Assembly (NCBI GenBank): GCA_033807695.1
Contig: CM066308.1
Span: 372,001-436,000 of the forward strand
Direction: 5' to 3'
Source of the DNA: Daedaleopsis sinensis
Lineage: Eukaryota > Basidiomycota > Agaricomycetes > Polyporales > Polyporaceae
DNA length: 64,000 nt
The notes beneath the pieces were generated by a model, which saw nothing but the letters and a program-made list of their open reading frames with translations, was not told the origin of the DNA and made no database searches. The translations under genes and the position numbers were made by a program. Of the stretch, positions 4,885 to 60,544 are shown in pieces (position 1 is the stretch's first letter; each line of letters starts with the position of its first letter).

Positions 4885-6470
4885 GGTTGAGGATGAGAAA
4901 CCAGTGGAAGAACTTGAAAACGTTGCTGCGATCGATGCGATGTAAGAGTCCAATGCGATTGCAAGGAACCAGGCGCTTATAGAAGGAGGAGCAAGACGCC
5001 GAATTCGAACCATAAAATTTACTGAACCAGTTCGCGCGCTCCTGATAGTAGCATGTTACACGGGTAGGCAGATTGCAGCACAGCAGAGATGTCATGAGAC
5101 ATGAGATATATTGAAACCAGAAGATGGCTATCAATACACGAACGAGAGCACGCAGATAAAGTATGCCCACTGAACACTAGTATCGTGGTGGAGAACACCG
5201 TCTTTCGCCGAGGCTAGCGTCGACCACCGTCTCTTTCGTGTCCTGCAGCACCCTTAGTGAACCACTTTCAAACGCAGACCGCCTACCCTATGTCGGCACT
5301 TCATCAGGCCGCATTGGCACCATCTCCATGGACGGTTTAAAGAGGGCGTGCATAAAGAGACCGGGACCGTGCCCTCGCGGTCTCTGAAGCTGACTGGCTG
5401 TGAGCCTCTGCTAGTGTCCTGCCGCCTGGTGTAGCAGTACCAGTGATTCACTGAACAGCCTGAGTACAGAGCATCGTGATGCACATCAGAAACAGGTTGG
5501 ACTCACCTTCGACAGTAGGAACGAGTCCTCGGGTAGGTTTACTCGGCAGTCGTTGGCGAGTATTTCGTAGAAATACGAGACCCACGCGAGAAAGAGTATC
5601 CCGTTCGTATCATCGAAGAGCGGGCATCGCGCCGCCCGCTGCGTCCTGCGGATACGCGTGCGCACCACGTTGTCGTCCGGTGGCTCGTAGTCGCGCTGGG
5701 TGTTTGCGCACGATGTCGTCCGAAAGCTGTACGACATGATAGAGCTCAATTTAGTCGCCGTCCAGGTCCAGAAGCTGATTAAAAGCGCATAGTACTCACT
5801 ACCGCGTCGCGAGCACGAGCAAGCATAATCTTCGTCGCATCGTGCAGCGCCGACCCAAATCGGACTGCTCCCACTGCAGGTGCCCGCCGGCCGATCTACC
5901 CGGTGCAAAGGGGCGGGGAAAATTTTGAGGAGGGCGTGCGTGTCGCCGGACCGATCGGACGTGCGAAGGCAGAAGAGACGGGTGAGGTCGGGGGCGCTGC
6001 CGTCCCATCCCTCGGCGCAGAGGACATCGAGAATCGCGTGGACTGAGTGGACGAGGTTCAGTTAGATGACGGTGGGCTACGACGTGCGTTTCGGCTTTCA
6101 TGCTTTCGGAGCGAAGGATAATAAGAGCTCTCGAACACGGTGACAGAGGCGATCGGCCAGGTGGAGGGACACGGGCGAGCTCGGGCGTGCCGCCATCTTG
6201 TCTACCGAGGTTGAGCTCCACGACGGCGCGCCGCCAGACAGCGCATCCAGCAGGGTAAGGGCCGTCGGGTCATCGGTGCTGCATCGATCGCGAGCAAGAA
6301 ATGTCAGTGTCGGGATCTGTTGGAATATGCACGATAGGCCTGTCACCAAGGACCTCTACGTCGCCAACTCCCGAGCGTATCGCGCGAGCTAGTTCTCAGT
6401 GCGAAGCATGGAACAGGGTAGAGAGAAGTACAGCATCACAGCGAGCACGTACGCACCTAGAGCCAACGAA
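4885..6470 (-). pseudogene. Decayed uncharacterised gene, unit 1 copy
   Basis: About 500 bases upstream of the F-box start hold nothing recognisable. From 5480 to 6400 the minus strand carries exon-like pieces that recur in unit 2 (19140-20420) and in shorter form in unit 3 (28560-29090). Shared peptides include a FDDTN...F..EILAN block near 5500-5640 and a LARDRCSTDDPTALTLLD block near 6240-6310. Donor-like GTGAGTAC sites close several pieces. Frames shift repeatedly, so no single product can be made. I do not recognise the family. Confidence 0.4.
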
Positions 6471-42845: not shown

Positions 42846-44969
42846 TTAAGCGTCGAGTTAACCCTAAGCCCTGCAGCAAATCATGCCCTTGACCTTAGCG
42901 AATTTCTGGATAAGCTCAAGGTTATCAACGCACCATCGACGTAGCGATACCCTTCAGCCACAACACTCCTGTTTTCTCCTCGATCTCGACTCCAAGGGTG
43001 CAGGGCTGAGGGCAAGTCTTGCAAAAGGGGTAAAGCCGCACATAGATAGAGCATCTGAACGTCAAATGTATACGGTCGCTACACAGAAATATTCGATAGC
43101 AGAGGGATCTACTACAAGTCTAGTAGACATCGATAAGTGCACGAGTGCACGGAGGAAAATATGCGTTACACACCTACGAGTATGGCCGAGCTTGTCACGC
43201 TGAAGACCCCGAGCCATAAGAAATTGCACCCTAAGGCCTACCGCCATATAGTCGGAGCGATAACGAGACCCTGAACCCTGGTAAATGGTAAGTGGCCAAA
43301 CGTTCGAGCCAAGAAATCGACATGAATCGCTCACCTTGCTCGTCTAGGCTGGGTGTGAGGTTTCCTGAAAGGAAACGCAAGCGATATGGTGAGACCTTGC
43401 TCTCGGATTGCACGGTGTTTAATATTGCAACTCGACCGTCTACTACTCACGCGTTGTGGTGCACCCAAAACTCGAAGACCTACTGACCGTGTTAGCAGCA
43501 TGAGAGGAATACATCGGATGCGGGGAGATATGAGAGAAAGAGTTGCGGCGACCTTGCAGTCGATGCTAGCAGATTTGGATTTGAGATAAATGCGTCACGA
43601 ATCGCGCACAAAGCTTTTCAGTGGCTTCGTGATTGTAGTAATGGTCCTAGATAAGCTTCAGGGATCAGAAAGCGTCGAGATGGCGCCTTGTACTTGCGGT
43701 AAGAGGTAGTCAGACGTGCAGAGATCTTGGACCATCTCTCGGATAGGGAAGGATATCAACAAGCTGTAGAGAAAAATAAGCACACAAGTACGTATAGAGC
43801 ACGATAGTCTTGTAGTTCAGCCCTTCTAGCTCGTCAGGTACGCGAGATCAAGCAAAAATTGTGTTGAGTAATGCATGTAACGCTGCAACGTCAGCGTTCA
43901 TCAGCATCCACTGCTTCTGCAAGGCGCACACCATTCACCTTGAGCACCGTCGAAGTTCAGGATGTCAGGTGGATGTGAGCTTGAAGTTGTTGTACTGGTC
44001 GCGTCCGCCTGGCAATTGTGGAAAGAATTGCTGCGGTGTCGGCAATGGAGCTCGTCTTGGGCCGGATGTCGTCTTAGTCAAATCGATTAGGCTAGTTGCC
44101 AGTACTGGTCGCAGTCGTCCCCTTACAAACATTTGCGTCAGCGTATGTTGAACCTGGGCAGGAAATGCACAAACCTCACCCTCGACATTAGCTTAGCCGT
44201 CAGCTGGCTCTTGTTGAGGGATTTGTTGTTCAGAAAGATAGTCGCCCCGTCGATCTCCATGCCCAGCAAGTCGGCCGTCCGTCCAACGACTATCATAGTC
44301 CCACTACTCAGGCTCGAGCCGGAGGGTTGGTAAGGGCACATGCGGGCTTGTCCCTTCGCAGAACATGGTGCACATCGCACGAGACTGAGCAAATGAACGG
44401 GCTAACAGTCATGTTCATGCCTGCGAAGCATTTGGCCTGGCGTTTGGATGGGGATCGATGCATGCTGGGGCTTACCTTCGCCTCCCTGCCATCACGTCGT
44501 CTTCGACCGCAACTTGACCACCCTGAGGATGCTAAGACTGCTCTAAACCGCTGTGCACAAAGCAGGTCTCTCTGGATTATGTTTGCGCACCTCGATGAGA
44601 TCAACACTTGCAAAGCATCCGTTTATTAGCGCATTACGCCGCGGTTGCGCCTGGCATGAGCGTCGTACCACCAACGGAGCCGCGTTAAATCTTCCCCTGA
44701 GGAGCTCCATCCGTCCTGTGGTTGGGCGAGCCGGGCCCCAAGTACCTAACCTTGAAGACTCAAGGGATCACAGATGCATGCATGTTGATACAGTGCTCGA
44801 GTATTGCCCTCGAGGCAGGCCGGCTCGGTTCTTCTGCCAGCCAGCTTGCCGGTGTTCGGTAGTAGAGCGATGACGCCGATTGGATGCATAGGTATCCTGC
44901 ATAGGTATCCGTAGGCGTAGTGGTACTATCATGCAGAGTGGACGGGAGCAAGCATAGTGTGTCGACCGT
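42846..44969. other. Intergenic region, no gene recognised
   Basis: The first few hundred bases should hold the promoter of the transposase gene. Only frames below 110 codons occur, none with a domain that I recognise. Minus-strand pieces near 44040-44390 have protein-like composition but contain stops. Confidence 0.4.
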
Positions 44970-45559
44970 TGATGAGCCTCAGGACCAGCTAGGCCCCGGA
45001 AACACCACGCAGCCCATCACTATTCGCGCCCGTCAGTCAATTCACGCAGTATGAAGACGAGCGGCTTCACAAGGAAGGCGAGCGACTACCGAAGGAGCGA
45101 GTACGGAGACATGCCATTCCAAGGGTCGAAGGAGCCGATGCCGAGCTGCCGGCGGCTGACCGAGGTCGCCAGAGCTCTAGCCAGGACAGAGGAGGCGATC
45201 GATCGAGGGTCTGGTCTAGGCGACCGCCACGGAGTCCAGCAATTGGTACGAAGGTCGTCGGAAGAGGCCCGGAAGACAAGGGAGTGAGGGGGACGGCCTT
45301 CCGAGGCCTATGAAGACGAGCGGATGGACTTCAGACGCGATCACGTGGTGACGCGCCACAAGACTAAGCGCTCTCGTGACCGCGGATGCAAGTCGAGCGG
45401 CGACGTGATAGGCTCGGTGCAAACACCTACCTAACCACCGGAGTGCGCCGTAGGGGTTCAGGAGAGGAGGATCGCGACGTGAGCGTGGGAGGAGCAGGGT
45501 TTCCTATGATTGGACGATTGGTAGGATAGTTGTAGTTTATTTGGTGACGATTTGTACAG

Positions 45560-45566
45560 TATATAA
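45560..45566 (+). promoter_or_regulatory. TATA box in LTR
   Basis: TATATAA within a GTACAGTATATAAGTCAG context is the likely Pol II core promoter for the sense genomic RNA. The same site is at 57346-57352 in the 3' LTR. Confidence 0.65.
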
Positions 45567-45700
45567 GTCAGCGGGATTGCGGCCCAGCAAAGCAGCGCAG
45601 TAGCTCCAGAGATCGAGTCCGAGTCCAAGAATCATCTAGTCGACACTCAATTGAAGACCGTCCATCTTCAAACCTCCTCTTGCAGACTAGCCTCACCCAC

Positions 45701-45738
45701 GGAAGTTGCTTGACTTCCATCTGAAGTTGCTCAACTTC
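45701..45738. promoter_or_regulatory. Pair of dyad-symmetric motifs in LTR
   Basis: GGAAGTTGCTTGACTTCC (arms GGAAGT/ACTTCC) is followed four bases later by GAAGTTGCTCAACTTC (arms GAAGTTG/CAACTTC). They lie downstream of the TATA box, within the likely transcribed R/U5 part, so they could be factor-binding sites or RNA hairpins. Confidence 0.45.
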
Positions 45739-45877
45739 CTTGTCTATCGTCGACGGGCTACGTGAAGAAGAGCGACTACACCGGGAACCTGTCCTCCACC
45801 TCGCACCCTACTAGGTAGCTGATCTCGTGCTCGTTTGGGTGTGTGTTTCGCCCAGCGACCCAGAGTTACCCCATCAT

Positions 45878-45897
45878 TCTGGAGCCCACCGCGAGGG
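45878..45897 (+). other. Primer-binding site candidate of Gypsy element
   Basis: TCTGGAGCCCACCGCGAGGG starts two bases after the LTR end. From its TGG it would pair with a tRNA 3' end reading ...CCCTCGCGGTGGGCTCCA. I could not assign the tRNA. The same 20 bases occur at 41493-41512. Confidence 0.55.
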
Positions 45898-46310
45898 GTT
45901 CAAGAACAGTCTCCACCGGTTCCGGCTCAAGAATCCCACGTTTGCGGCCGACGCGGAGCGAACGTATCCGTCGCCTCCATCGACAAACCGAACAGGCTTT
46001 AGAGGAAATCGAAGCAGAAGACCCCGAGAGAGCAGAGCAGCTCACTACCGTTATCGAGAACAACTTCGCAGTTTTCGCAGACTCTCCGCTTACCGAACTA
46101 GAGGACGCTTCCGAAGACGAGCAGGAGGACATTGAAGTTCCGGACCATCCGTTCCTGACTTCAGAATCAATTAGTAACCCAAGACCTACGCTATCACATA
46201 CCGCAGGGGCCTTCAACCTACCTAGGAACCCCCTTCCTTCCCTGCTAGCCTACGCCGCTCAAATATTACCTACGGCTCTACCACCCGTAGTACCACCCAC
46301 AATCCATTCA

Positions 46311-48725
46311 ATGGCTAGCGCAGATCTATCGAAACTACCGTTGCGTACGGAAAGGAGTGCGCCCCAATTCGATGAGGAATCTAAGGACACCGTCGAGCGG
46401 TACTTTGACGACCTTGCCCGACTTCTGAAGAAGCATAGCATCACTGATGAACAAGCTTGCAAGGCGGCGGCGGTTGACTACATACCAGCGGGAGTCGCCA
46501 AGCGATGGAAGTCCCTGCCGACGTTCTCGGACACCCAGAAGACGTATGAAGAATTCAAGACGGAGGTTCTATCCTTCTACCTCGGGACGGATGCCCAGTA
46601 CACCTGGACACTGCGAGAATACAATGAAGTCATCGGGGAAGCCGTACGTACGGGGATATCCAGCCTCGAAACCTACATGAAGTTCTACGGCAAATTCTAT
46701 CCCATCTACCGGTACTTGCATGCGAAGACCGAGCCAGAGCTAACGGAGCGCGACGCGTCGACAGCCTTGCTACGACTAGTTCCTATGCAGTACACAATGG
46801 CGGTATCCGCGCGGTTAGCACACCAGGTGCCTGCAAAACACAAAGAAGAAGCTTACACGGTCGCGCAAGTGCATGAAGCAATTTCCTATTGTCTGGCGGA
46901 CGGAGGCCCGTTCGGCGGGATCGGAAGTTGGTCAACTGCGACGTCCGGTAACCTCGCTCGAGTCAATCCTCCGGCTCCAGCCATGGCCTCCACGGTTACG
47001 GTGAAAACCGAGCCGGATCTATCGGCCTTCAAGCGGGAGATGATCTCCATGATGAGTTCGACCATGCGCGACTTCGTGAGCCAGCAGAGGATGCAAGCCA
47101 CGCAACCGCCGCAACAAGGGGAACAATACCCTCCACCACCACAACCTCCCCAGGGAAGGTACCAGCAGCAGCAGGGGGGCCTATACGGACGTAATCCACC
47201 CGCTAACGACGAATGCATCTACTGTGGCCTACCGGGATGTCGGTTGAAGACGTGCCCGAAAGTCGCAGAGGACATGACGGCGGGACTCATCCGGAAGGAC
47301 GTATACGACAAAATCATCCTACCAGGAGGCGGTGTGATCCCTCGTAGTCTGCCAGGGAACTGTATGCGCGATAGAGTCAATGCTTGGCACGAAAAGAACC
47401 CAAACCAACGAGCGCGAGGAACCATGAGCAACATCTATCAGTTCGAGATGCAGGAAGACGAGCGTACCTTGGAAGAGGAGTTAGAAGTCCTCATGCACAA
47501 GGCAAACATGGTTAAAGAGCGCATGAACACTCGCTCGGGACGGCAGGTTTTTGATGGAGTCGAGCTAGAGACGCGGCCTCGACGTATTACGCGCAACTCG
47601 GAGAAAGGGAGGGACGACACGCGGGCAGGGACGCCCGAGCGTGATCAGCCGCCTCACCAGCCGACGAGAGAGAAGGGAAAGGAGAAGGAGAAGCACGTTA
47701 CCTGGGACACGAGGGCAAAAGAGCCTGAAGAGACCTTCCATCCCTATGCGCCGACTGTGGTACCCAGAGGCCAGGAACTGCCGAAGAAGGACGAACCACC
47801 GGTCAGAAGGACCGCAGCGATCATCGACCCGACCGCGGAAGAAAGAGTCTTCAACCGAAGCTTCGGAGACAGCCAGAGTATCACAGTGTCACCAGCCGAG
47901 CTACTCAGTATTTCTCCAGGACTCAGGAAGCGAGTGCATGAGGCCACAGCTCTCAGGCGAACGCAAGTCAGAGACGAGCAACTGCAGGAAGTGACCAACC
48001 GGGAAGGCGAGCGGCCTCGGAACAAGGTACTAGTGACCGAAGTCGCTGAAGACGAAGACTTCCTGGCAGACAACCTCCAGACAGCAGGAAGTTCATCCTC
48101 AGGGACTGGAAGGCCAACGCTTGGATCCTTTGCATTCGTAGACCTGGACTATGAAGGCAGCGAGGACGAGGACGAGGAGCCAAAGTCGCACAATGCACCG
48201 TATGTAGCTCCGGGACAAGGCTATCCTGCGAGCAGTCGGCGGAAGTCAACCATCGTAGCCTCGGAATCGGAGAAGCTGAGGTCGCTGTTCACCTGGGTAG
48301 CTCGAACGGACACGCCGACAGAGTGTACACTCGACGATGGGTCCCAGATCGTCGGTATAAACGACCAAATCGCTTATGCGTTGAAGATCCCCTACGATCC
48401 TACCAAGCGAAGGAGGATGATCAGCGCAAATGGGACGGTCGACATGACACTCGGTCTAGCAAAGAACGTGCCTGTAGAATTAGGTGGCGGGATCGTGGTC
48501 TACCTCCAGATGCATGTTGTGAAGGCAGCGCCTTACCAGATCCTCCTAGGAAGGCCGTTCATGACGGTGATGCGTGCGAGGTCGAGCAACTCTATGGATG
48601 GCCAATTGTCAATTACCGTCACTTGCCCTAACTCGAACCGCGAATTGACGCTACCGACCTACGCGCATGGAGACTCTCCGAGTTATGGACTCAGAGTCGA
48701 GGGTTTTCGGGCTTCGAGGATCTGA
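46311..48725 (+). CDS. Gypsy Gag-protease polyprotein, 804 aa from first ATG
   Basis: It forms the particle and processes the polyproteins. The capsid domain begins SKLPLRTERSAPQFDEESKD and continues through the conserved RYFDDLARLL and YEEFKTEVLSFY blocks of basidiomycete Gypsy Gag. A zinc-knuckle variant near residue 302 is C-x2-C-x4-C-x4-C, with Cys in place of the usual His. The C-terminal part holds an aspartic-protease-like segment (TLDDGSQIVGINDQ, Asp about 675; then SANGTVD and ILLGRPF). The frame is open upstream to about 45843 without an ATG, so an N-terminal extension with non-AUG initiation cannot be excluded. It ends at TGA 48723-48725, overlapping the pol ATG by one base. Confidence 0.88.
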   Translation: MASADLSKLPLRTERSAPQFDEESKDTVERYFDDLARLLKKHSITDEQACKAAAVDYIPAGVAKRWKSLPTFSDTQKTYEEFKTEVLSFYLGTDAQYTWTLREYNEVIGEAVRTGISSLETYMKFYGKFYPIYRYLHAKTEPELTERDASTALLRLVPMQYTMAVSARLAHQVPAKHKEEAYTVAQVHEAISYCLADGGPFGGIGSWSTATSGNLARVNPPAPAMASTVTVKTEPDLSAFKREMISMMSSTMRDFVSQQRMQATQPPQQGEQYPPPPQPPQGRYQQQQGGLYGRNPPANDECIYCGLPGCRLKTCPKVAEDMTAGLIRKDVYDKIILPGGGVIPRSLPGNCMRDRVNAWHEKNPNQRARGTMSNIYQFEMQEDERTLEEELEVLMHKANMVKERMNTRSGRQVFDGVELETRPRRITRNSEKGRDDTRAGTPERDQPPHQPTREKGKEKEKHVTWDTRAKEPEETFHPYAPTVVPRGQELPKKDEPPVRRTAAIIDPTAEERVFNRSFGDSQSITVSPAELLSISPGLRKRVHEATALRRTQVRDEQLQEVTNREGERPRNKVLVTEVAEDEDFLADNLQTAGSSSSGTGRPTLGSFAFVDLDYEGSEDEDEEPKSHNAPYVAPGQGYPASSRRKSTIVASESEKLRSLFTWVARTDTPTECTLDDGSQIVGINDQIAYALKIPYDPTKRRRMISANGTVDMTLGLAKNVPVELGGGIVVYLQMHVVKAAPYQILLGRPFMTVMRARSSNSMDGQLSITVTCPNSNRELTLPTYAHGDSPSYGLRVEGFRASRI
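48701..48707 (+). promoter_or_regulatory. Candidate -1 ribosomal frameshift heptamer
   Basis: GGGTTTT is phased G-GGT-TTT in the gag frame (codons GAG GGT TTT at 48699-48707), fitting the X-XXY-YYZ rule. A -1 slip leads exactly into the pol frame, which is open from about 48632. The gag stop follows 15 bases later. A short perfect hairpin GAGAG-GTCG-CTCTC lies at 48738-48751, further away than the usual 5-9 nt spacing. Confidence 0.45.
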
Positions 48726-51700
48726 TGAACAGTCAGGGAGAGGTCGCTCTCGTCCTCGACTATGACACAAGAACGGGTCAAGTTTTCACGACGGCGTACA
48801 AGGACTTAGAAAACCTAGAAAATTCCACAATTCAGTCAGCATATCTATCGGCCTGTGACGACTCCGAGACAAAGCAGAAAATCAAAACCATGTTCTCGAA
48901 AGTACCGATCCAGGAATCGGAAGGGGATAGAATGCGGAGCCGACAACCACATCGCGAAGTCGACCGAGCCCTCTTCCGAGGACGAGCACTCCCAGTATAC
49001 GCTACGAAAACCAGAGGCAGAAGAGCAGTCAGAACCCGGTCTAGGTCCAGCGAAGCAGCAAGAGCGAGCGAGAAATCTGAGCCGAGCGAGCAAGAACAAG
49101 AGGCGGAAGGCGAGCAACTTCCAGAAGACGACGAGCGGCAAGCAGCCACCGAGGACCCCGAGAGCGTACGCAGCTACGTGAAATCGAAGAAGAAGTACAA
49201 GCCAGTGGATAAGAAAGTACGACCAGTGATTGGGGAGCTTCCAAAGCAATACAGAATTGTACGGGAGATAATCGGCGACCCTCTCGAAGGGATGAAGCCG
49301 CTTGACCTCAATCCAAAGCCTTTTGAACCAACTGGGCGGTACACAGCTGAACGACGCGAGAAGCTCCACAAAGTCAATGCTCACCTATCGGAAGAAGAGC
49401 TAGCTTTGCTAGACGACATGATGTGCAAACAGGAGCAGGGATTCGCTTGGGAAGACAGCGAGCGTGGCCACTTCAGGACGGACATGTTCCCACCAGTGAA
49501 GTTTGCGGTTGTGCCTCACACTCCGTGGATTGAAACGAATTTCCCCATTCCACCCGGAACCTACCGACAAATCTGCGAGATCATGAAGAAGAAAATAGAA
49601 TCAGGCGTATACGAACCCTCAAATGCGTCTTACCGATCCAGGTGGTTCTGTGTGCTGAAGAAGGACGGGAGTCTGAGGATCGTCCATAGTCTGGAGCCGC
49701 TCAACAGAGTCTCTATTCAACACAGCGGTGTACCACCGATACCCGACCACATGGCAGAACGCTTTGCAGGGCGTGCGTGCGGGACGACCTTGGATCTATA
49801 CGTTGGATACGACGAGAGGATCCTGGACGAAGAGTCGCGCGACCTCACGACCTTCCAAACGCCTTTCGGAGCCATGCGACTGACGACGCTACCAATGGGA
49901 TGGACAAATTCAGTACCCATCTTCCACGACGACGTGACCTACATATTGCAGCCTGAAATTCCGGATACGACGATTCCCTACATCGACGACGTACCTGTCA
50001 TTGGACCGGAGTCTTCCTACGAACGGGAAGATGGTTCTTTCGAGTGTATGAAGGGGAATCCAGGCATCAGGAGGTACATCTGGGAGCACATGCAAGACGT
50101 CAACAGGATTGTACAGCGGATGAAACATGCGGGAGGTACCTTCTCGGGCAAGAAGTTCGTCTGCGCGGCGCGCGACTTCGTAGCGGTGGGACATCGATGC
50201 ACACCGGAAGGCCGTCTTCCAGAGAGAGGTTGCGTGGATGCGGTACTCAAATGGGGACCGTGTAAAAATGTTTCCGAAGTACGGTCGTTCCTGGGAACGG
50301 TAGGCGTTGGGAGGATCTTCATCAAGAACTTCGGGAAGAAGGCCGCGCCATTAGTCAAGCTCACGCGGAAGGACGTACCGTTCGAATGGGGAGAGGAACA
50401 GGACAAGGCCATGGAGGATCTAAAGACAGCATTAGTGGAATCCCCGGCCTTGAAGTCGATCAACTACGAGTCGAAGGCCCCGGTAATTCTAGCGGTGGAC
50501 ACCTCTTATATCGCGGTCGGCTACCAGCTGTGTCAAGAGGATCCGGAAGACCCGCGGAAACGATACTACAACCGCTTTGGATCCATTACCTTGAACGAAA
50601 GGGAAGCCAGATTCTCGCAACCGAAGCTCGAGCTATATGGTCTGTACCGAGCATTGAAGGCGCTCCGCTTCTGGCTGGTCGGGGTACGAAACCTAATAGT
50701 AGAAATGGATGCGACATCTACGAAAGCCATGATCCAGAATCCGGATGTCGCGCCGAATGCAGTCATGAATAGGTGGATCATTAGCATCAATATGTTCCAC
50801 TTCGAAATGCGGCACGTACCTGGAATCTCCCATGGACCGGACGGTCTCAGCCGACGACCTGCGCAGCCTGAAGACGAACCAGAAGAAGCAGACAACGGAG
50901 AATTCGATGACTGGGTGGACAACATGTACGGCTTTACACACCTCATAAATCCACCTCCACACTTGGGAGACGCTCCTCTACAACACGAGGTTAAGCGGAA
51001 AACGAGCAACTTCAAGACGGAAGCGATGGGCTTCAGTGCGCTCATGCAGCAGACAAGCGGGACGGCGGGCAAGCTACCGGACATTCCAGAAATTGACTAC
51101 GCAATCGTACCGCGCACGGAGGTTGCCCAGAAGTTTGACCACAGAATAGCGAACGTCTACGAATTTCTGTGCACCAAGAGAAGACCGAAGCTGGTTCAGA
51201 AGGAGCTCGATGCGTTCGTCAAATACGCAGGACAATTCTTCGTGAAGGATGGCCGACTATGGAAGATAGCGAAGAATGGGAACCACAGGAGAGTACTACC
51301 CCCAGAACTACGGGCGAAAGCGTTCGTGAGCATGCACGACTTCATAGGACACAGAGGCGTACAGGCGACAATCTCCTTCGTGGCCGAACGGTTCTGGTGG
51401 CCAGAAATGAAGGCGGATGTGGCCTGGTATGTGAGAAGCTGCCACCAATGTCAAATTCGACAAACTACGCGGATCTACATACCACCTTCAGTTTCCTATC
51501 CTGCGGCGCCGTTCGTACGAGTTCACGTCGACTCTATGGACATGCCTGGCTCGTACAAGCACTTCTTCCATGCGAGGTGTGCAACCACAAGTTATGCTGA
51601 AGGGCGGGCAAGTACAGTCCAAACAGCGAAGGCGGTCGGCGACTGGATCTATCAAGACCTGCTGTGCAGATGGGGAGCGCTGTCCGAGATCGTGTCAGAC

Positions 51701-52495
51701 AACGGAAGTCCATGGGTTGCAGCGTTGGAGTACCTGGCAAAGCAATACCACGTCAAGCACATACGGATCTCAGGATACAACTCACGAGCGAACGGAATCG
51801 TCGAGCGGCCTCATTTCCACGTCCGGGACGCGCTCTTCAAAGCATGCGAAGGTGATACGACGCAATGGGTGGCGCGGGTATATTCAGTACTCTGGGCGGA
51901 CCGAATCACAGTACGCAGGAGAATAGGGTGCTCACCCTACTACGCGGTAACTGGGACGGATCCAATCCTGCCCATGGACATCACAGAAGCCACGTACCTG
52001 CTGCCTATACCGACGAAGCTCGTGTCCACAACGGAGTTGATCACCAACAGGGCGATGGCATTGCAGAAAAGACCGGAGGACATAGCGCGGTTGCGGTCAA
52101 CCGTCTACCGAACACGCGTCCAAGCTGCGGAGCTATTCGAGAAAGAACACAGCGCAACCATCCGAGACTTCAACTTCCAGCGAGGAAGGCTGGTTCTGAT
52201 GCGGAACACGGCAATTGAGAAGTCGCTCAACAGGAAGATGAGACCACGGTACCTAGGCCCTCTAGTAGTGATATCGCGCAACAGAGGCGGCGCGTACATC
52301 ATTGCAGAACTCGATGGGACCGTCTTCGATCGACCCATAGCGGCCTTCAGAATCATCCCCTACCTAGCGCGTGAGGACCCAATCAACTTCAATATTGAGG
52401 AACTGGACGCACCACAGAGCCGACTGCAAGAATTAGAAAACACAACAGAAAACTACGAAGAGGAAGGATTAGCAGACGACGACGAACACGGCTAA
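48725..52495 (+). CDS. Gypsy Pol polyprotein: RT, RNase H, integrase; 1256 aa
   Basis: It copies element RNA into DNA and inserts it. After a charged N-terminal 200 residues comes reverse transcriptase, with the active-site YIDD at 419-422. RNase H follows, with its first catalytic Asp near 592 (VILAVDTSYI). The integrase has an H-H-C-C zinc domain (HDF..HRG....CHQC near 870-915) and a D-D-E core at about 936 (VHVDSMD), 992 (VSDNGSPW) and 1027 (NGIVER), with 34 residues between the last two. The C-terminal tail has a GPLVVISRN fold but no chromodomain. Translation may begin at its own ATG, which overlaps the gag stop as TGATG, or by -1 frameshifting from gag. Confidence 0.93.
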   Translation: MNSQGEVALVLDYDTRTGQVFTTAYKDLENLENSTIQSAYLSACDDSETKQKIKTMFSKVPIQESEGDRMRSRQPHREVDRALFRGRALPVYATKTRGRRAVRTRSRSSEAARASEKSEPSEQEQEAEGEQLPEDDERQAATEDPESVRSYVKSKKKYKPVDKKVRPVIGELPKQYRIVREIIGDPLEGMKPLDLNPKPFEPTGRYTAERREKLHKVNAHLSEEELALLDDMMCKQEQGFAWEDSERGHFRTDMFPPVKFAVVPHTPWIETNFPIPPGTYRQICEIMKKKIESGVYEPSNASYRSRWFCVLKKDGSLRIVHSLEPLNRVSIQHSGVPPIPDHMAERFAGRACGTTLDLYVGYDERILDEESRDLTTFQTPFGAMRLTTLPMGWTNSVPIFHDDVTYILQPEIPDTTIPYIDDVPVIGPESSYEREDGSFECMKGNPGIRRYIWEHMQDVNRIVQRMKHAGGTFSGKKFVCAARDFVAVGHRCTPEGRLPERGCVDAVLKWGPCKNVSEVRSFLGTVGVGRIFIKNFGKKAAPLVKLTRKDVPFEWGEEQDKAMEDLKTALVESPALKSINYESKAPVILAVDTSYIAVGYQLCQEDPEDPRKRYYNRFGSITLNEREARFSQPKLELYGLYRALKALRFWLVGVRNLIVEMDATSTKAMIQNPDVAPNAVMNRWIISINMFHFEMRHVPGISHGPDGLSRRPAQPEDEPEEADNGEFDDWVDNMYGFTHLINPPPHLGDAPLQHEVKRKTSNFKTEAMGFSALMQQTSGTAGKLPDIPEIDYAIVPRTEVAQKFDHRIANVYEFLCTKRRPKLVQKELDAFVKYAGQFFVKDGRLWKIAKNGNHRRVLPPELRAKAFVSMHDFIGHRGVQATISFVAERFWWPEMKADVAWYVRSCHQCQIRQTTRIYIPPSVSYPAAPFVRVHVDSMDMPGSYKHFFHARCATTSYAEGRASTVQTAKAVGDWIYQDLLCRWGALSEIVSDNGSPWVAALEYLAKQYHVKHIRISGYNSRANGIVERPHFHVRDALFKACEGDTTQWVARVYSVLWADRITVRRRIGCSPYYAVTGTDPILPMDITEATYLLPIPTKLVSTTELITNRAMALQKRPEDIARLRSTVYRTRVQAAELFEKEHSATIRDFNFQRGRLVLMRNTAIEKSLNRKMRPRYLGPLVVISRNRGGAYIIAELDGTVFDRPIAAFRIIPYLAREDPINFNIEELDAPQSRLQELENTTENYEEEGLADDDEHG

Positions 52496-52945
52496 CACTC
52501 ACGTTGACGAGGACGTCAAATGGAAAAAGTGGGGGGGAGGAAGTCGCTTGACTACGGAAGTCAATTCCTCTACAGGCCGAAGAGCGCTTCAAGAGGCGCT
52601 TCGCGCGTCGGTCATCTCGGAGATCACACAAGAAGAAGAGCAGAAGGCGATGCGATACATTCGGGATACTAGATACAGTACAGATTAAGACGGACAACAG
52701 AAGCTGAGCGCGACGGGATACGGGAAAGAAAACCAGAAGGAGACATTACAAAGCCCAGAGCGACAGGAGGGAGACGGAGAGACTAGTCCGCGGGAGACAG
52801 AGACGAGCAGAGGAGATATATGCGAAAAACAGAAAACAAGACAGCGCGAGCCGCGCGACGACAGGACGAGACGACGACCAAGCAGGAGATGACAAGAAAA
52901 GCTAATAACAAGAAGTCCGTGGACGCGCGCGCGTCGAAGAAGTCC
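52496..52945. other. Spacer between pol and antisense cassette
   Basis: It contains the internal polypurine tract and then about 400 bases that are strongly purine-rich on the plus strand, probably the 3' untranslated part of the convergent antisense gene A. No gene of its own. Confidence 0.6.
52527..52540 (+). other. Internal polypurine tract copy
   Basis: AAGTGGGGGGGAGG is identical to the tract next to the 3' LTR at 56742-56755. It lies 32 bases after the pol stop, where the 3' LTR of a cassette-less Gypsy element would begin. Confidence 0.7.
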
Positions 52946-55210
52946 CTACTCGGCATTGCGAAGAAGCTCGAGGAGATCCTCACGATAGCCATTGGACGCC
53001 ACCAAGTCCTTGAAGGACCGCACGTCGTCGCACCCTTCGATCTTCACGCCAAAATCGAGCTGGGTCTGTCGAGTCTCGCGGCGGGAAAGCTGCCGAATGG
53101 ACACCAAGTCCTCGACGATGCGCGCGCGTGCGAGGCTGACCTGCGAGCGAAGATGGTTGACCTTCGCGACGACCTCCGGCGAGAAGCTGACCGGCTCCGG
53201 CGACCTGCGCTTGGAAGATGAGGACTTGATCGAGATCTTGAGGGGCGTCGCCGGTTGGGAAGTCGACTTGGAGGGGCTCGGCTTCTCCTTCTTGACGCTG
53301 CCAGAAGCGCGAGACGAACGAGGAGGCGGCGTAGAGTCGTCGGGTTCGGCCTTGCTGTTGCCATAGTCCTCGAGCAGGCGGCCCTTCTCGTCGAGCGAAG
53401 GATAACGCGTAGGACCCTCCGGGTACGGGTAGACGGGGGTGTCCTTCCGGATGGTCTTCGGACGAAGACGCTCCTGGAGCGCGGCCTTGTCGACGGAGAG
53501 GAATTTGTGCGAGTTCCTCTCGAACTGGCGGACGAAGTCGACGGCGAGAAGACGGTCGGCGGGCGGCAGCTGCGAAGGTTCCCGGAAGGAAAACCCAACG
53601 CCGTTGTACATCGCGCCGATGCGGGCGTGCACTAGAAAGAATACAAGAAGTCAGCAAGAAGACCAAGAGAAGAAGGGGGAAGGTACTGACCTTTGACCGT
53701 CCCCTGGACACTCAGGTGGTCGTACGCGCAAGAGAAGCTTTTCCCCTTCTTCTTGCAGAAGTTGCAGCGGAACGCGGAAGGGTCCGGACGTCTGCAGGTG
53801 ACCCCGGCGCGACGGCACTCGTCGCAGTCGCCCTCGATCTGCACGGCGCTGGACAACTCCACGGAACCTTGGCGAGTGGAAGGAGGCTTTTTGTCGCGCT
53901 TCTTGACCCTAGGCGACAACTCGACGACGGGAGGCGGACGTTTGCGGGGCGAGGTGCGGGACTTCTTCTTAGGAGGCTCCTCCTCCTCGAGTTGGTCGAC
54001 TTCTTCTTCGCCTTCATCGTCCACCTCGCCCTCAGCATCGCGGTCGGAATCGTCCGCGGGAGGAGAAACCGCCTTACGCTTTCCCTTGTCGACGGGCTTC
54101 TTGGGCGGCTCGCTCTCATCGGTGCTGAAGAAGAGGGGCGTCTTCTTCCTCTTCAGCGGCAGCTGAGACAGCGGAGGAGGAGGAGGTTGGTCAGGCGAGA
54201 GGGGGGAGCGTGTGCGGAAACGACGAGGAGAGTCGCGCTGGGCAGCGTCGGCCAGAGGCTCGTCGTCAGAAGCTTCCTCTTCGGGAACGTACTCGACACC
54301 AGTGACCATCGCAGCCAGGAAGGCGTCGCCAGGAAGGGCATCGGGGTCAGACGAAGGCGCGGTTGACGAGGAAGTGGGGCGTGTGACGAGAATCCTCGTG
54401 AGACGCTTCTTGTCGAGGACCGGGACGTAACGCATGCCGGACAGCAAAGGCAAGAACTGGTCGACGCGAGTGTCGATGGTTTCACGAGAGGCGCGCATGT
54501 CGGGCGGGTAATCGGCGACCTCCATCCAGCGCGGCTGGATGATCTCGTGGTACCAATTCACTGCAAGGAAGAAGCGGTCTTAGTCAAGCAAGAGTGAGGG
54601 CGAAGAACGTGAGTACTTACGCTCGAAGAAGCCCAGCCGAAGGCGGTGAGCCTGGAAGGCGATGTCGATCTCCAGCGGGGACTCCGTGACGGTGCTCGAA
54701 ACCGCGAACAACCGCAACCGGCGAGAAGCCAGCGCGTACGAGCGAAAGAACTCCGAGACCAGGGAGGGCGGCGCGTAAAACTCGAACGTCGGGAGCGCGG
54801 CGAGGAGCAGGGGATCCAGGTACCAATTCCACTCCGGGACGAGACGGTGCTGCGAAAAAGGAATGTGTCAGCGAGACAAGACTTGGAAGGCCGGGACGGC
54901 GTACCAGAGCCATGACGATACGATCAAACATGGCCTTGAACGTGCCATATGAGAACGTAGCGAGCTGGTCGTCGGTGTACTCTTCCAAGATCGCCCGGAA
55001 GTCGCTGATCGTCAGCGGAGCGGCGTCCTGATCGCGAAGCTCGTCAGGCGTAGTAGGAACGGGCTCCTCACAGCCAAGTCGATCGGATTCACGCGTGAAT
55101 TGCAACGGGAGCCACTTGAACAGCTCCTTGGGGATCGGTCGCCGAGGAGCATCGCAAGACGAGCGAGTGGCGGCGACGTTGGAAGACGAGCGACGGTTGG
55201 AAGCGGACAT
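52946..55210 (-). CDS. Antisense gene A: Zn2Cys6-like protein, 4 exons, 696 aa
   Basis: It is encoded inside the retrotransposon against gag-pol. Exons are 55210-54905, 54849-54621, 54560-53691 and 53631-52946; donors GTACGC, GTAAGT and GTCAGT, acceptors CGCAG, TGCAG and TCTAG, phases 0, 1, 1. Residues about 424-456 carry six cysteines spaced C-x2-C-x6-C-x9-C-x2-C-x8-C, which fits the fungal Zn2Cys6 binuclear cluster. Before it lies a long acidic stretch and a basic PPKKKSRTSPRKRPP, a likely nuclear signal. The N-terminal 180 residues include HRLVPEWNWYLDPLLLAALP. The start has a CACCATG context. Role inferred: a DNA- or chromatin-binding accessory factor of the element. I do not know a named family for the whole protein. 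Confidence 0.78.
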
Positions 55211-55275
55211 GGTGGGCGATGGATGAGAAGACGAGAGGAGAATGCACGAAGGCGGACAACCAGAAGGCCAAAACG

Positions 55276-55281
55276 TTTATT
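55276..55281 (-). terminator. Polyadenylation signal for antisense gene C
   Basis: AATAAA on the minus strand, about 100 bases after the gene C stop and 66 bases before the gene A start. Confidence 0.45.
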
Positions 55282-55383
55282 AAGGGCGACAGTCAGAAGA
55301 ACGTGAAGGGAACCGTGAAGTACAACGTCCAAATGCGGTAATCTAAGCGCTCTCCGCGCGACGGCGATCGAGGGCGGCCCCAA

Positions 55384-56038
55384 TCAGTCGCACATCAAAG
55401 GAATAGAACCGAAGACTTCATCCTCGTCTGACAGAGAGGACGGCGACCTTTCCAGCTTCTTGATGGCCGCGTGGAGGGCGGACTGCTCAATACGCACCCC
55501 GCGCAGTTCAGCGGCGACCAATTCCAGACGCGCGAGTACTTCCGAAAAATGAACGCGGTACCGGTCGTCGCGCGCCAGGTCGCGCATGACCTCCAAGAGT
55601 TGAAGTTCGTGTTGCAGAGTGGCATGCACTGAGTCCAGGAAGTGGAGGCGGTACGGCAGGCGGTGCGTCTGGACCAGGTCGACAAGGAACGCCTCAAGGC
55701 CGTTGGAGTAGAAACACTGGTCGATGGCGATGGACACGCGGGCAAGTAGGTCGGAAACGCCGACGAGAAGGCCGTCATGAAGCATGCTCCAACCATACTG
55801 GGAAGGTGTCAATCAAGCGCGAGAAGCATCAGGCCGAGAAGCTCACCAAAAGTTGTCCTAAACGGGAAAGCGCGTGTTCATACACAACGCGGGGACAGCC
55901 GTGGTCGACGGATACCATCTCGAAGAACTCGATTTGCTCAACAATGTGCGCACGAAGCGGGGGGAGGAGTTCAAGGGCCAACTCGCGGTGCGAGCTGACT
56001 TGGAGGGCGAGCGTACGCGGGAGGACGGTCGACGACAT
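55384..56038 (-). CDS. Antisense gene C: helical protein, 2 exons, 201 aa
   Basis: Exons are 56038-55847 and 55797-55384, with a GTGAGC donor, CCCAG acceptor and phase 0 junction. The product begins MSSTVLPRTLALQVSSHREL and is Leu-rich with heptad-like runs (LHFLDSVHATLQHELQLLEV and a closing IEQSALHAAIKKLE), suggesting coiled coils. No catalytic motif is seen and the family is not recognised. It lies 62 bases after the stop of gene B and 173 bases before gene A. Its frame stays open upstream to a TTG at 56104, overlapping the gene B stop, so a fusion by frameshift is conceivable. Confidence 0.65.
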
Positions 56039-56100
56039 GAAAAATGGAAGTTGATGAACTTCGAAGGCAGTTACAGCGGCTTTATACGACACGCGGCTAC

Positions 56101-56671
56101 TCAAAAGTGGATGTCCTCTCGGAGGCTGGCAAACTCCTGATCTATCTCCTCCATTTCCTTTTCGACCTTCCGGATCCGGGCATCAACCAGAATAGACTCC
56201 GTGATCAAGGATCCTCCGGCGCGATTGAGGACGCGGCGCGCGCAGAGTTGCTTCCGGAGCCGCTGCTGACAGGCAATGCGACGAGCATCGAGGTCGGCCC
56301 GACGAGCGCACCGACGGGACCGGGCGACAAGCTCTTGGAAAAGGAAGAGCTGACGGTCAGCCAAGGCAGGCCAGCCCTCGGTGATCGTATTCTCGGTCCG
56401 TTTCACGAAGTCCGCGGCAACCTCGCCATCGTCCCCCAAGGTGATCAAAGTGTCCTGCCATGAAGACAGTCAGCCACGAAGACGAGGGCCTACACGCGGA
56501 AGGAGGACGACGTACCACCAGTTCAGCGATATGGTCGTAAGAATCGTAGATGATTCCAACGTCCTCTTCAGTACGAGCGGCAGCAAGAGCCTCGAACTCA
56601 GAGATCGCGACTTCAAGCTGACGGACAGTCTCCGTGAGGATGGGGACGTTGAGGAAGATGAAGGCAGACAT
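56101..56671 (-). CDS. Antisense gene B: coiled-coil protein, 2 exons, 169 aa
   Basis: Exons are 56671-56516 and 56454-56101, with a GTACGT donor, GGCAG acceptor and phase 0 junction. The product begins MSAFIFLNVPILTETVRQLE and is strongly helical. The C-terminal half is Arg/Lys/Glu-rich (RRADLDARRIACQQRLRKQL; RIRKVEKEMEEIDQEFASLR), typical of a coiled coil. It is the gene nearest the 3' LTR and has its own TATA box 36 bases upstream of the start. No enzymatic motif is visible and no family is recognised. Confidence 0.68.
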
Positions 56672-56706
56672 TGCGAAGGATGAAAACCGAGGATGGAACG
56701 AGGGAG

Positions 56707-56714
56707 TTTATATA
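56707..56714 (-). promoter_or_regulatory. TATA box of antisense cassette
   Basis: TATATAAA on the minus strand, 36 bases before the gene B ATG and 41 bases inside the 3' LTR boundary. It is a likely core promoter for antisense transcription, independent of the LTR promoter. Confidence 0.6.
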
Positions 56715-56741
56715 CGCGCAAACCGAGGACGGTTCGAATGC

Positions 56742-56755
56742 AAGTGGGGGGGAGG
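56742..56755 (+). other. Polypurine tract at 3' LTR
   Basis: AAGTGGGGGGGAGG lies directly before the LTR TGATG; it would prime plus-strand DNA synthesis. Confidence 0.85.
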
Positions 56756-57662
56756 TGATGAGCCTCAGGACCAGCTAGGCCCCGGAAACACCACGCAGCC
56801 CATCACTATTCGCGCCCGTCAGTCAATTCACGCAGTATGAAGACGAGCGGCTTCACAAGGAAGGCGAGCGACTACCGAAGGAGCGAGTACGGAGACATGC
56901 CATTCCAAGGGTCGAAGGAGCCGATGCCGAGCTGCCGGCGGCTGACCGAGGTCGCCAGAGCTCTAGCCAGGACAGAGGAGGCGATCGATCGAGGGTCTGG
57001 TCTAGGCGACCGCCACGGAGTCCAGCAATTGGTACGAAGGTCGTCGGAAGAGGCCCGGAAGACAAGGGAGTGAGGGGGACGGCCTTCCGAGGCCTATGAA
57101 GACGAGCGGATGGACTTCAGACGCGATCACGTGGTGACGCGCCACAAGACTAAGCGCTCTCGTGACCGCGGATGCAAGTCGAGCGGCGACGTGATAGGCT
57201 CGGTGCAAACACCTACCTAACCACCGGAGTGCGCCGTAGGGGTTCAGGAGAGGAGGATCGCGACGTGAGCGTGGGAGGAGCAGGGTTTCCTATGATTGGA
57301 CGATTGGTAGGATAGTTGTAGTTTATTTGGTGACGATTTGTACAGTATATAAGTCAGCGGGATTGCGGCCCAGCAAAGCAGCGCAGTAGCTCCAGAGATC
57401 GAGTCCGAGTCCAAGAATCATCTAGTCGACACTCAATTGAAGACCGTCCATCTTCAAACCTCCTCTTGCAGACTAGCCTCACCCACGGAAGTTGCTTGAC
57501 TTCCATCTGAAGTTGCTCAACTTCCTTGTCTATCGTCGACGGGCTACGTGAAGAAGAGCGACTACACCGGGAACCTGTCCTCCACCTCGCACCCTACTAG
57601 GTAGCTGATCTCGTGCTCGTTTGGGTGTGTGTTTCGCCCAGCGACCCAGAGTTACCCCATCA
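56756..57662 (+). repeat. 3' LTR of Gypsy element, 907 bp
   Basis: It appears identical to the 5' LTR at an offset of 11786 bases. Confidence 0.93.
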
Positions 57663-57922
57663 CCGTCTAGAGACTTGGTAGAACGAGGTTAAATCCAAAC
57701 TGTGACTCGGACGTGAAGCGGCCCCAAGAGTGCGGCAAAGGCGCCTCTAGTAGCGCCCTGGCCTTCAAGGTAGTCTCCGAGCCCTCGAGACTCAAACGGC
57801 TTTTGCTATCGGTTGACGTTAATAACAGCGGTCCCACATGTGAGATCAGCCGCCGGGGGTCCCTGAGGCGAGCGAGGGATCAATGAAGGTCGGTTGTAGT
57901 ACGTATGTAATATACAAAAGGA
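57663..57922. other. Flank between Gypsy element and next gene
   Basis: No gene. It holds the right copy of the target duplication and the 3' region of the minus-strand gene that follows. Confidence 0.5.
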
Positions 57923-60544
57923 TTATCGCCGGGCTTTGAAAGTACGTTGATACTTACATAGCAAGTGCTCTACCATGATAGGATCGTACAGTATGAAGTT
58001 ACGGTCCTCTTCGCCTAGAGTCTGCAGAAGATAATAGTAAACACGTTTGAAAGCCTGGGTCACCTCTGCCTCTGAAGCATCCTCCGAAGCGACCTGATTT
58101 GAGCGTACCAGTCCTTTCAAGGAGCCCAGTCCGTTGAAATGAACCAACCGTCCCATCTCCTCTAAAGATGGGCATGCGACCTTGCCAGTGTATACCACAT
58201 CGGCGGTGAGAAGATATCCGGTTAGCCCGCCAACCATCCTCAGCTTGGTCCCGATATGCGAAAATCGGCGTTTGCCCTTCGCATCGCGCTGAACTTCCAC
58301 CTTGCCTTGAGTCCAGAGAAAGAACTCCTCGAATGGCACAGGCTTGCCCGCGTGCTTCTTGAGGAGTTGAATCCAGTCCGACTCGGCCTCAAAGTACTGC
58401 AAGGCGATGTTGTGTCCGTTGTTGCGCTCGTCCTGTGGAGATCCGTAGCAAGAGATATTGAAGAAGTGCTTGAGAGACTCCGGGGATGTAGAGTCGAAGC
58501 GCTCCGACTCCAGGAAGGATTTCCACGCGGCGACATCGCGGAAGTAGCAACGGGTACGCCGATGAAGGACGGGTGAGTTGTATAGGAGGGCTCGGAAGAT
58601 GACCCAACTTGGGAAGGCCCCTGGGTGATCACAAAGGTCGCGGTGGAATGGTTCCCCCGATGCCGTGACGCGCAGTCGGGAAGGGGCAAGCTCGCGGAAC
58701 GGGAGGTAGAAATCGACGTCCTCGAGCACAAGCTTTTGAAGCGTTGTGGGAGAGGGAATAGAATGTCCACGCGCGATTGGTAGAAGATGATGCACGAACT
58801 CGCTGAGATCGCACAATCCAGCATCCTCCAGCGATGTTAAAGGGTGTGCAAGTACGACCAGCGGCGGTACATGAGCGGCGGGTTCGGAAGGGGAACACCC
58901 GACGTTGGTGGATTCGGAAGGGGAACGCGTTCCCTCTGCACTACGGATGCGCTGAACTGATGCATCGGTCCACGCGCGAAGTCCTGGGAAGCATCGATCT
59001 ACGACAGACAAATACTCGTGCATAATCTTCTCCTCCGAAGAGTTAGAAGAAGCCAGAGGCAAGCGAGCCAGGGCTAGAGCGAAGGGCTGCAGCATTGACA
59101 CACGCGCATCCTTTGGTCGCTGTTTCTTGCCAAAAACCGACTTCGAAATTGAACGATATGCGTCCCAGATGCCGTCCAGCAAGAGCACATCCGAGTTTTT
59201 GAACGTTCCTACGAGGCATATGATGAAGTATGCAGACGCCATTGCGGTGTTATTTGGGAAGTTAAGCCACTGACGGACGATGGACAGGACATTGCGCGTG
59301 GTGACGTCAGGAATCTCGGAATCGAGGATACGGGGAAGGGGAAGGCAAGCGGTAGAAGAGCTGTCAAGTCCAGATAGATAGTCATCTGAGCGGTAGCTCC
59401 CTTCACGTCGATTGCGAACGTCGTCATAGACCGAGACGCATAGGCGTTCAAACCATCCAGCCTGCCTAGTAGCCGTTTGAGGAGCGGAACTTGATGAAAC
59501 CTCGCCACCAAGCTCCTCGATCAACGTCCGGCATTTGTCAGCGCACACGTCACAAAGCCAATACCACGCCGCCGCGCTGGAAAGCATGAGGCGACGTCGC
59601 TCGATAGCACGTCGAAGGGACCCAATGCCATCTGAGGTGTGCGATGTGCGATGAGCTGGCCACATCCGTAAGATGCACTGGGCGATGTCTGTGGAGACGT
59701 CGTCGGCCTGGAAAGCGCGGATAAAGTTGTCGACCGCCTCCCGCGCATTTCGCACTTCAGACGGTTCGACGGGAAGTGTCCGTGCAATATTGCGCATAAC
59801 GCTGAGTTGGGTCTGCAGGCGGTCGAGCGAGAACAGTTCCAGCACTTTCTGAAAGGCTATAATTCGCGTGAGATCGACTGTGCTGGGAGTAATGAGTACA
59901 ACGTACGTGGAGGGTCTGACAGAGTATCGTCCGGACTATCGCTGGTCCTAGCCTGCACAGACGGTGACGATGCGCTGGGCTCCCGGAGAGGACTGAAGTC
60001 TGACGATGAGCTGGGCGGATGGACATCCCCTTCCGCTGCACTTGAGAATGGAGGTACCATGGACAGGCCGTCCGAACGAGTGGGTGTGATTGCTGGCATC
60101 TGCCCAGCAACATCTGGGTCTAGAAGCTCTAGAAAGCCTGAGCGAGCTTGGTTCTCCTCTCCTAAGTGCGCATCAAGATCAGACCGTTGTCAGGAAGGTA
60201 TTTCGGTTGACTGACCAGGATCCGTCGGACCTATTGATATCGCTGCACGCTCAACAGACGGAACCGAGGAGCATGAAGCTACGCCGTTCACATGGCCCTC
60301 CTCAACTCTGGAGTCATGGTCTTCCAGATCTTCATCGGCTTCGTATCCATCCTCCAATCCAGAGTCTTCGGAGTCTTCTGAAATTAGATTTAGATGTTCG
60401 TTCATTTGTTAAGCTGCAGCAGCACTCACCGCAATAGTCGGAACATAACGCATCCAGCACGGACGTATAGACCGTCAAGTCAGCGTCTCCAAACCGGTCA
60501 GGTAGATCAAAGCCGCTATCTGCTAACGAGAAGTCCAAGTTCAT
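57923..60544 (-). CDS. Uncharacterised multi-exon protein
   Basis: The main exon (from about 59845 to the stop at 57923) gives 640 residues of well-formed protein sequence; segments such as WLCDVCADKCRTLIEELGG and GTKLRMVGGLTGYLLTADVV look conserved, but I do not recognise the family. Upstream exons 60544-60430, 60377-60216 and 60161 onward join in phase (GTGAGT and GTCAGT donors) and encode an acidic, Ser/Pro-rich N-terminus (SEDSGLEDGYEADEDLEDHD). The junction of this region with the large exon is unresolved: the likeliest donor (GTACGT near 59907) and the acceptor TTTCAG near 59852 differ by one phase. Either the true donor differs or there is a frameshift. A short last intron near the C-terminus is also possible. 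It lies 261 bases from the Gypsy 3' LTR. Confidence 0.6.

Follow-up and report, generated by a model that had tools for sequence, protein, structure and literature searches.

Three predicted intron-bearing antisense genes under selection in a young Ty3/Gypsy retrotransposon of Daedaleopsis sinensis

The window analysed is a stretch of 64,000 nucleotides of Daedaleopsis sinensis (contig CM066308.1, positions 372,001 to 436,000 of the forward strand), and all positions are given within it unless a contig is named. The interval 44970-57662 is a young Ty3/Gypsy LTR retrotransposon, with the following features on the plus strand:

44966..44969, plus strand, second copy at 57663-57666: target-site duplication CCGT (4 bp), in the flanking sequence
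44970..45876, plus strand: 5' LTR, 907 bp, TGATG...CATCA, no mismatch to the 3' LTR
45880..45898, plus strand: probable primer binding site TGGAGCCCACCGCGAGGGG, directly after the 5' LTR
45819..48725, plus strand: gag-protease ORF, stop to stop, from the ORF listing
48701..48707, plus strand: slippery heptamer GGGTTTT in X XXY YYZ register, inside the gag-pro/pol overlap
48632..52495, plus strand: pol ORF with RT, RNase H and integrase zinc domain, from the ORF listing and Pfam
56740..56755, plus strand: polypurine tract region GCAAGTGGGGGGGAGG, directly before the 3' LTR
56756..57662, plus strand: 3' LTR, 907 bp, no mismatch to the 5' LTR

The LTRs, the target-site duplication, the polypurine tract and the order RT, RNase H, integrase are those of a Ty3/Gypsy element. 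Pfam located RT at 346-511, RNase H at 586-721 and the integrase zinc domain at 890-945 of the pol ORF; neither an integrase core family nor a chromodomain, as would mark a chromovirus, was among the pol matches at E ≤ 1. Two aspartyl protease matches in the gag-protease ORF (E 1e-5 and 4e-4) were both slightly below the curated cut-off. The gag-pro and pol ORFs overlap by 94 nt in the −1 frame. Copies of the element form family F1, and related families of the same genome are called F2 to F5. Flanking 4-bp repeats were also present in F4 and F5 (one copy of each read), and the 19 nt of TGGAGCCCACCGCGAGGGG recurred after the 5' LTR of the F2 copy L043 and of F5, with 18 of them in F4.

Between the pol stop (52495) and the 3' LTR lies a block of 4260 bp. 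The sequence-only reading had placed three antisense genes of 169, 201 and 696 aa in this block, and models rebuilt on the minus strand with GT..AG introns reproduced these lengths for genes A, B and C, respectively:

56516..56671, minus strand: gene A exon 1 (gene model)
56455..56515, minus strand: gene A intron of 61 nt in phase 0, its position shared by F2 and F3
56101..56454, minus strand: gene A exon 2 (gene model, copy comparison)
55847..56038, minus strand: gene B exon 1 (gene model)
55798..55846, minus strand: gene B intron of 49 nt in phase 0, its position shared by F2 and F3
55384..55797, minus strand: gene B exon 2 (gene model, copy comparison)
54905..55210, minus strand: gene C exon 1 (gene model)
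54850..54904, minus strand: gene C intron 1, 55 nt, common to F2 and F3
54621..54849, minus strand: gene C exon 2 (gene model)
54561..54620, minus strand: gene C intron 2, 60 nt, in F1 but not in F2 or F3
53691..54560, minus strand: gene C exon 3 (gene model)
53632..53690, minus strand: gene C intron 3, 59 nt, in F1 but not in F2 or F3
52946..53631, minus strand: gene C exon 4 (gene model; TAG stop checked in copies)

Coding sequences and introns of A-C account for about 3.5 of the 4.26 kb. The exon numbers four, two and two given before were recovered, but in another order (two in A, two in B, four in C). The junctions are open with GT..AG introns as had been claimed, but since many other GT/AG combinations also leave A and C open, open phase alone is weak evidence for these two models; matching intron places between families provide the stronger argument for the predicted structures.

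The genome searched (51.6 Mb, 24 contigs) contains 34 places at least 96% identical to a pol segment, the window included. In protein searches, 28 of these 34 pol copies had matches to A, B and C in antisense orientation downstream of pol; presence of C was scored by exon 4 and that of A and B by exon 2, so that exons and not whole gene models were matched. One or more gene matches were missing from the expected range in the remaining six, one of which sits 3.5 kb from a contig start. Some copies are close together, for example those with pol at C9:1141279, 1149904 and 1164649. The F1 loci L024, L025, L027 and L029-L032 duplicate copies in L013, L015-L017, L019, L021 and L022, and L006 and L028 are the window copy; all counts are of distinct copies. 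Where the gene was covered in young F1 copies, A was intact in 11 of 11, B in 15 of 16 and C in 8 of 8. The sole lesion was a 46-nt deletion in B exon 2 of L011; this excepted, no stop, frameshift or lost splice site was found in the covered young copies. The TAG stop of C was present in all eight young copies and in L046 and L044. The more diverged copy L046 has A, B and C all open, with nonsynonymous/synonymous variants of 4/12, 9/9 and 47/77, respectively, and the old, damaged copy L044, in which 537 nt of C coding sequence and the B stop are gone, retains variants of 8/19, 24/20 and 57/81 (ratios 0.13, 0.39 and 0.23).

Unique variants of the distinct F1 copies (11 for A, 16 for B, 8 for C) were scored against the window copy. 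Nonsynonymous/synonymous counts of 0/10 in A, 9/13 in B and 20/59 in C gave per-site ratios of 0, 0.23 and 0.11, and pol, compared at eight search loci of which one is the window itself, gave 13/27 and 0.14. Nonsynonymous variants were fewer than the sites predict in all four (binomial p 7e-7 for A, 6e-4 for B, 1e-20 for C and 2e-9 for pol). Of 240 variants in all eight exons (L046 included), 156 fell at third, 49 at first and 35 at second codon positions. The density of unique variants per site was 0.074 in introns, 0.048 in intergenic sequence, 0.035 in exons and 0.021 in the LTR, the last value not being comparable with the others because fewer loci reach the LTR. Over C exon 3 the ratio was 0.12 in the frame of C and 0.26 to 2.27 in the other five frames; the 0.26 belongs to one sense frame, presumably that in which the degenerate sites are also degenerate in C. 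A 317-aa sense ORF within the block (53413-54366) had a ratio of 2.08 and was rejected as a shadow of gene C. Conservation of A-C within F1 is similar to that of pol, the dN/dS comparison suggested earlier thus pointing to purifying selection, and between families A-C diverge faster than pol. The counts and the codon-position bias reject chance ORFs; that the frames are more than chance rests on selection, not on ORF length. By this evidence A, B and C are almost certainly real antisense protein genes under selection.

Families F2 (L033-L039) and F3 (L040-L042) carry A, B and C in antisense orientation, in the same order and at the same place as F1, so that Gypsy elements with homologous antisense frames, for which a search of related Agaricomycete genomes had been advised, were found within the same genome. 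Their pol is about 65% identical to F1 and 92% to each other at the amino acid level, and their genes are 30-32% (A), 21-24% (B) and 27-28% (C) identical to those of F1 in protein sequence. At this level of identity the introns of A and B and intron 1 of C are at matching places in F1, F2 and F3; introns 2 and 3 of C are confined to F1 among the three. The F2/F3 omega was 0.12 for A, 0.14 for B, 0.40 for C and 0.05 for pol. Omega values of F1 against F2 or F3 (0.43-0.77 for A-C) were obtained at dS above 1.2, with pol dS saturated, and are left out of the evidence. With the reference L033 counted, A and B were intact in all seven near-complete F2 copies and C in six, L038 having a frameshift and a changed acceptor in C; in F3, A and B were intact in all three copies and C in two, being interrupted in L042. 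An eighth F2 copy, L043, had no match to B or C and left the start of A unmatched; its interpretation as a separate lineage was rejected, and it is a deletion derivative of F2 without detectable B and C. In the F2 copy L037, C is 12% different in exons and 34% in the intron (omega 0.17) and its flanks are mostly 1-3% different; such a diverged C between flanks this similar has been exchanged by recombination.

Two further families were found by pol search, F4 at six places (68% to F2 over the RT-RNase H segment) and F5 at two full-length places at 60% together with partial ones. One copy of each was read (L050 and L052 for F4, L051 and L053 for F5), with identical LTRs of 747 bp in F4 and 662 bp in F5. 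F4 contains an antisense C homologue (hhalign probability 96.6%, E 6e-10) and one small two-exon antisense gene adjoining the 3' LTR, which is closer in alignment to B (77%, E 2e-5) than to A (21%, E 1e-3) and whose predicted intron, judged by eye, is at the corresponding place. F5 has about 170 nt between the pol stop and the 3' LTR and therefore lacks the antisense gene block. With A-B-C in F1-F3, one A/B-like gene and C in the F4 copy read, and none in that of F5, the block is selected but dispensable in this clade. The alignment of A with B is weak (probability 0.3%, E 0.17), and the intron places of the two fall on the same column of it, from which it may with caution be concluded that A and B are probably old paralogues.

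The full A, B and C proteins matched no Pfam family at E ≤ 1. A structure model of B exon 2 was helical with a mean pLDDT of 69, and the structure search with it gave 387 matches at E ≤ 10, none below 0.001. Searches of 5.8 billion proteins returned seven fragments (1, 1 and 5), six of them with 'lgn' as source and the seventh with 'ena'. In by-eye comparison with the models, three of the seven (P0001, P0002 and P0005) read through intron positions, and for this reason look like DNA and give no evidence of splicing.

Candidate promoter elements and a dyad were located near the polypurine tract and upstream of gene B:

56707..56714, minus strand: TATA box TATATAAA, 36-43 nt upstream of the gene A ATG
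56081..56086, minus strand: TATAAA, 43-48 nt upstream of the gene B ATG
56721..56734, no strand assigned: dyad/hairpin AACCG-AGGA-CGGTT, adjoining the polypurine tract

The four families with antisense genes (F1, F2, F3 and F4) all have a TATA box 36-50 nt ahead of the start codon of the first such gene, and none was seen in the pol-3' LTR interval of the F5 copy read, which has no antisense genes. F1, F2 and F3 have a TATA-like box (TATAAA or ATAAA) ahead of B as well, its distance from the gene varying; for C such a box is less clear, and in L040 it is absent. The dyad with an RGGA loop by the polypurine tract was present in the copies read of all five families (AACCG..CGGTT, GGACCG..CGGTCC or GGACTG..CAGTCC), the changes between families being paired. 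As it also occurs in F5, it is not specific to the antisense genes. CCG-N4-CGG as a target of the C protein found no support: it was not enriched, and F5 has the dyad too.

Gene C encodes a further feature:

53728..53826, minus strand: six-cysteine cluster CX2CX6CX9CX2CX8C, gene C aa 424-456

Two of three family fragments of this cluster had Zn_clus (PF00172) as their top Pfam match (E 0.02 and 0.04), with 15.4 and 14.4 bits for the F1 and F3 fragments against a gathering score of 21, for which reason the cluster is called Zn2Cys6-like only; the F2 fragment and P0001 had no PF00172 match. The Zn2Cys6 consensus is C-X2-C-X6-C-X5-12-C-X2-C-X6-8-C. The cysteine spacing of F1 (2,6,9,2,8) fits it, and those of F2/F3 (2,6,9,2,9) and F4 (2,8,8,2,6) do not strictly. 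Foldseek with a model of the cluster gave seven PDB matches, namely Pho7 (two), Gal4, Ppr1, Leu3 and two kinetochore CBF3-type chains, all of which we take to be Zn2Cys6 proteins (the Ppr1 title states so); a PDB sequence search with the cluster gave no E below 0.6. The likeness to fungal Gal4/Leu3-type regulators thus consists in six cysteines with two CX2C pairs and in the best, weak Pfam and structure matches; unlike in those regulators, the cluster is internal (aa 424-456 of 696), scores below the cut-off and varies in spacing between families. A scan of C from three families found NLS-like K-K/R-x-K/R motifs in each. Most likely, C regulates the element as a nuclear DNA-binding protein of Zn2Cys6-like type.

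The genes, their conservation and selection, the matching intron places, the TATA boxes and the modular loss and exchange provide the basis for a mechanism in which transcription, splicing, nuclear location, DNA binding and regulation by A-C are what we infer. RNA transcribed in sense from the 5' LTR would be both the genome and the message for gag-pol. Separate minus-strand promoters by the polypurine tract and upstream of B, perhaps also of C, would drive the accessory genes, whose transcripts would be spliced like ordinary host-type pre-mRNAs. C would regulate the element through its LTR, the antisense promoters or its chromatin state, with A and B as small partner proteins. Introns antisense to the genomic RNA cannot, owing to splice-site polarity, be removed from it; they would be copied at every retrotransposition and persist, as the sequence-only reading had rightly argued. 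This indicates that a retrotransposon can retain spliceosomal introns over long periods when they are antisense to its genome, and that antisense introns have been gained or lost between families. Being kept intact in many copies and related families, the antisense genes probably contribute to the element's control over its life cycle. An ambisense element with a self-encoded, probably nuclear regulator is the reading we favour, with some confidence. Of the regulatory or particle-associated proteins envisaged before, the zinc-cluster-like domain and NLS-like motifs of C favour the regulatory ones, and the particle-associated ones are unsupported. More speculatively, the families may form a truly ambisense Ty3 clade with an antisense cassette of intron-bearing genes under their own promoters, in which C, as a self-specific zinc-cluster transcription factor, and two paralogous partners would switch between production of genomic RNA and silence; modules would be gained, lost, trimmed and recombined, and antisense introns would mark inherited copies as sense-derived.

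Other explanations were weighed against this regulatory reading. The anti-silencing VANC proteins of VANDAL transposons offer a parallel for a C protein that binds element DNA and counters host methylation or heterochromatin. An arms race of this kind would fit the faster divergence of C than of pol (F2/F3 omega 0.40 against 0.05) and the exchange of the C gene in L037; however, omega stays below 1 and disordered regions alone can raise it, and we consider anti-silencing rather unlikely. The proteins might instead act after reverse transcription, C binding DNA or chromatin and tethering the integration complex or directing target choice, with A and B as assembly partners. The basic NLS-like motifs and zinc-cluster-like domain of C, as well as the closeness of some copies, agree with tethering, but clustering may equally result from selection against other sites, and separate antisense genes do not favour particle parts; we consider such a role quite improbable.

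Selection might also act on antisense transcription itself (dsRNA, siRNA or interference with pol), the proteins being secondary. The messages would overlap the 3' end of the genomic RNA, and an antisense-RNA role is discussed for plant elements in PMC7264820; against it, selection is on codons, with a third-position excess, F1 ratios of 0-0.23, and frames and splice sites kept, so that this explanation is very improbable. Hitch-hiking of a captured host gene cluster or a nested second transposon would account for introns typical of host genes. Yet no inverted pair of at least 25 nt was found in 43000-60000, by which a nested transposon was rejected, and the A-C genes are at the same place in several families. 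In addition, own-genome searches with F1 A, B and C and F2 B and C matched the F1-F3 elements, damaged pieces (L043-L045) and two B-like fragments at C12:16587 and C3:4683699, considered apart from their surroundings, and identified no free-standing host gene. We regard this origin as extremely unlikely.

It was fair to remark earlier that such genes are missing from most LTR retrotransposons, but ORFs of this accessory, antisense type between pol and the 3' LTR are documented, as far as PMC7264820 describes them, in the Ty3/Gypsy elements Grande (gene23) of maize, RIRE2 of rice and Retand of Silene, and in Boty. According to the descriptions in PMC7264820 and PMC11963269, the plant elements share the place, the antisense orientation and the presence in most copies; nuclear or DNA-binding proteins are suggested for them, and an own promoter is reported for Grande. 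In F2 the pol-3' LTR region also holds a tandem repeat, as it does in about half of the Retand elements surveyed. The element described here differs: it has as many as three genes, and all of them contain predicted introns in conserved positions; no word beginning with 'intron' occurs in the main text of PMC7264820 or PMC11963269. The antisense TRP28 domain (PF04195) of the Retand lineage is absent from A, B and C, which have no Pfam family at E ≤ 1. Boty (BcGypsy1) of Botrytis cinerea is likewise a fungal Gypsy element with an additional antisense gene, brtn (Zhao et al. 2011, as cited in PMC7264820 and PMC8365987). A single gene is named there against three here, a comparison made with the citing descriptions. 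HBZ of HTLV-1 is spliced and is a bZIP protein; no bZIP domain was found in A, B or C (Pfam, E ≤ 1). HBZ is an antisense-encoded nuclear protein of a retrovirus (PMC11963269), and for HTLV an antisense promoter is described inside the 3' LTR (PMC7264820), whereas the TATA boxes here are outside the LTR and the genes are three.

What antisense accessory genes do for LTR retrotransposons is unknown according to PMC7264820 and PMC11963269. The question is now directly testable, because the present case is young, multi-copy and compact, with clean selection signals, sister homologues, the gene-free young F5 as a natural control and a candidate DNA-binding domain. No description of such an element was found among titles or abstract starts in open-licence PMC. 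Antisense accessory ORFs are thus known as a kind, and, as far as these sources go, the gene number, the conserved introns, the TATA boxes tracking gene presence, the zinc-cluster-like protein and the modular history are new.

A dyad adjoins the polypurine tract, at 56721-56734 in the window element and at the corresponding place in the four related families of the same genome (F2 to F5). The RGGA loop and covarying arms of this dyad were common to all five families in the copies read, including the F5 copy, which belongs to a family without antisense genes. The dyad may form an RNA hairpin with a role in plus-strand priming or in packaging; alternatively, it may be a protein site. In L018, an F1 copy at C10:1681592, the match to the window ended at 56739, beside the expected start of the 3' LTR. 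The gag-pro/pol overlap of the window element contained the following site:

48701-48707, GGGTTTT, a canonical -1 slippery heptamer

In the F2 copy L037, gene C and its neighbourhood (3500-5990 in the coordinates of the F2 reference copy, L033) were replaced by a diverged allele, and this replacement came through recombination. A 28-bp minisatellite, located between genes A and B (about 7088-7400 in L033), differed among F2 copies. L043 is a deletion derivative of F2 with LTRs 99% identical, in which neither antisense gene B nor gene C was matched; an insertion with matching inverted ends, both strands of which gave the same translated stretch, adjoins the minisatellite.

Three F4 pol copies were found on one strand of contig C4 of the searched genome (G000 C4:1833733, 1849742 and 1865751) with a spacing of exactly 16009 bp; the LTR-to-LTR spacing in the F4 copy read is shorter, at 12.1 kb. 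This array may be either a tandem segmental repeat or an assembly effect. The F5 copy (L051, L053) was flanked by repeats of a protein-kinase-like gene, which we take to be FunK1.
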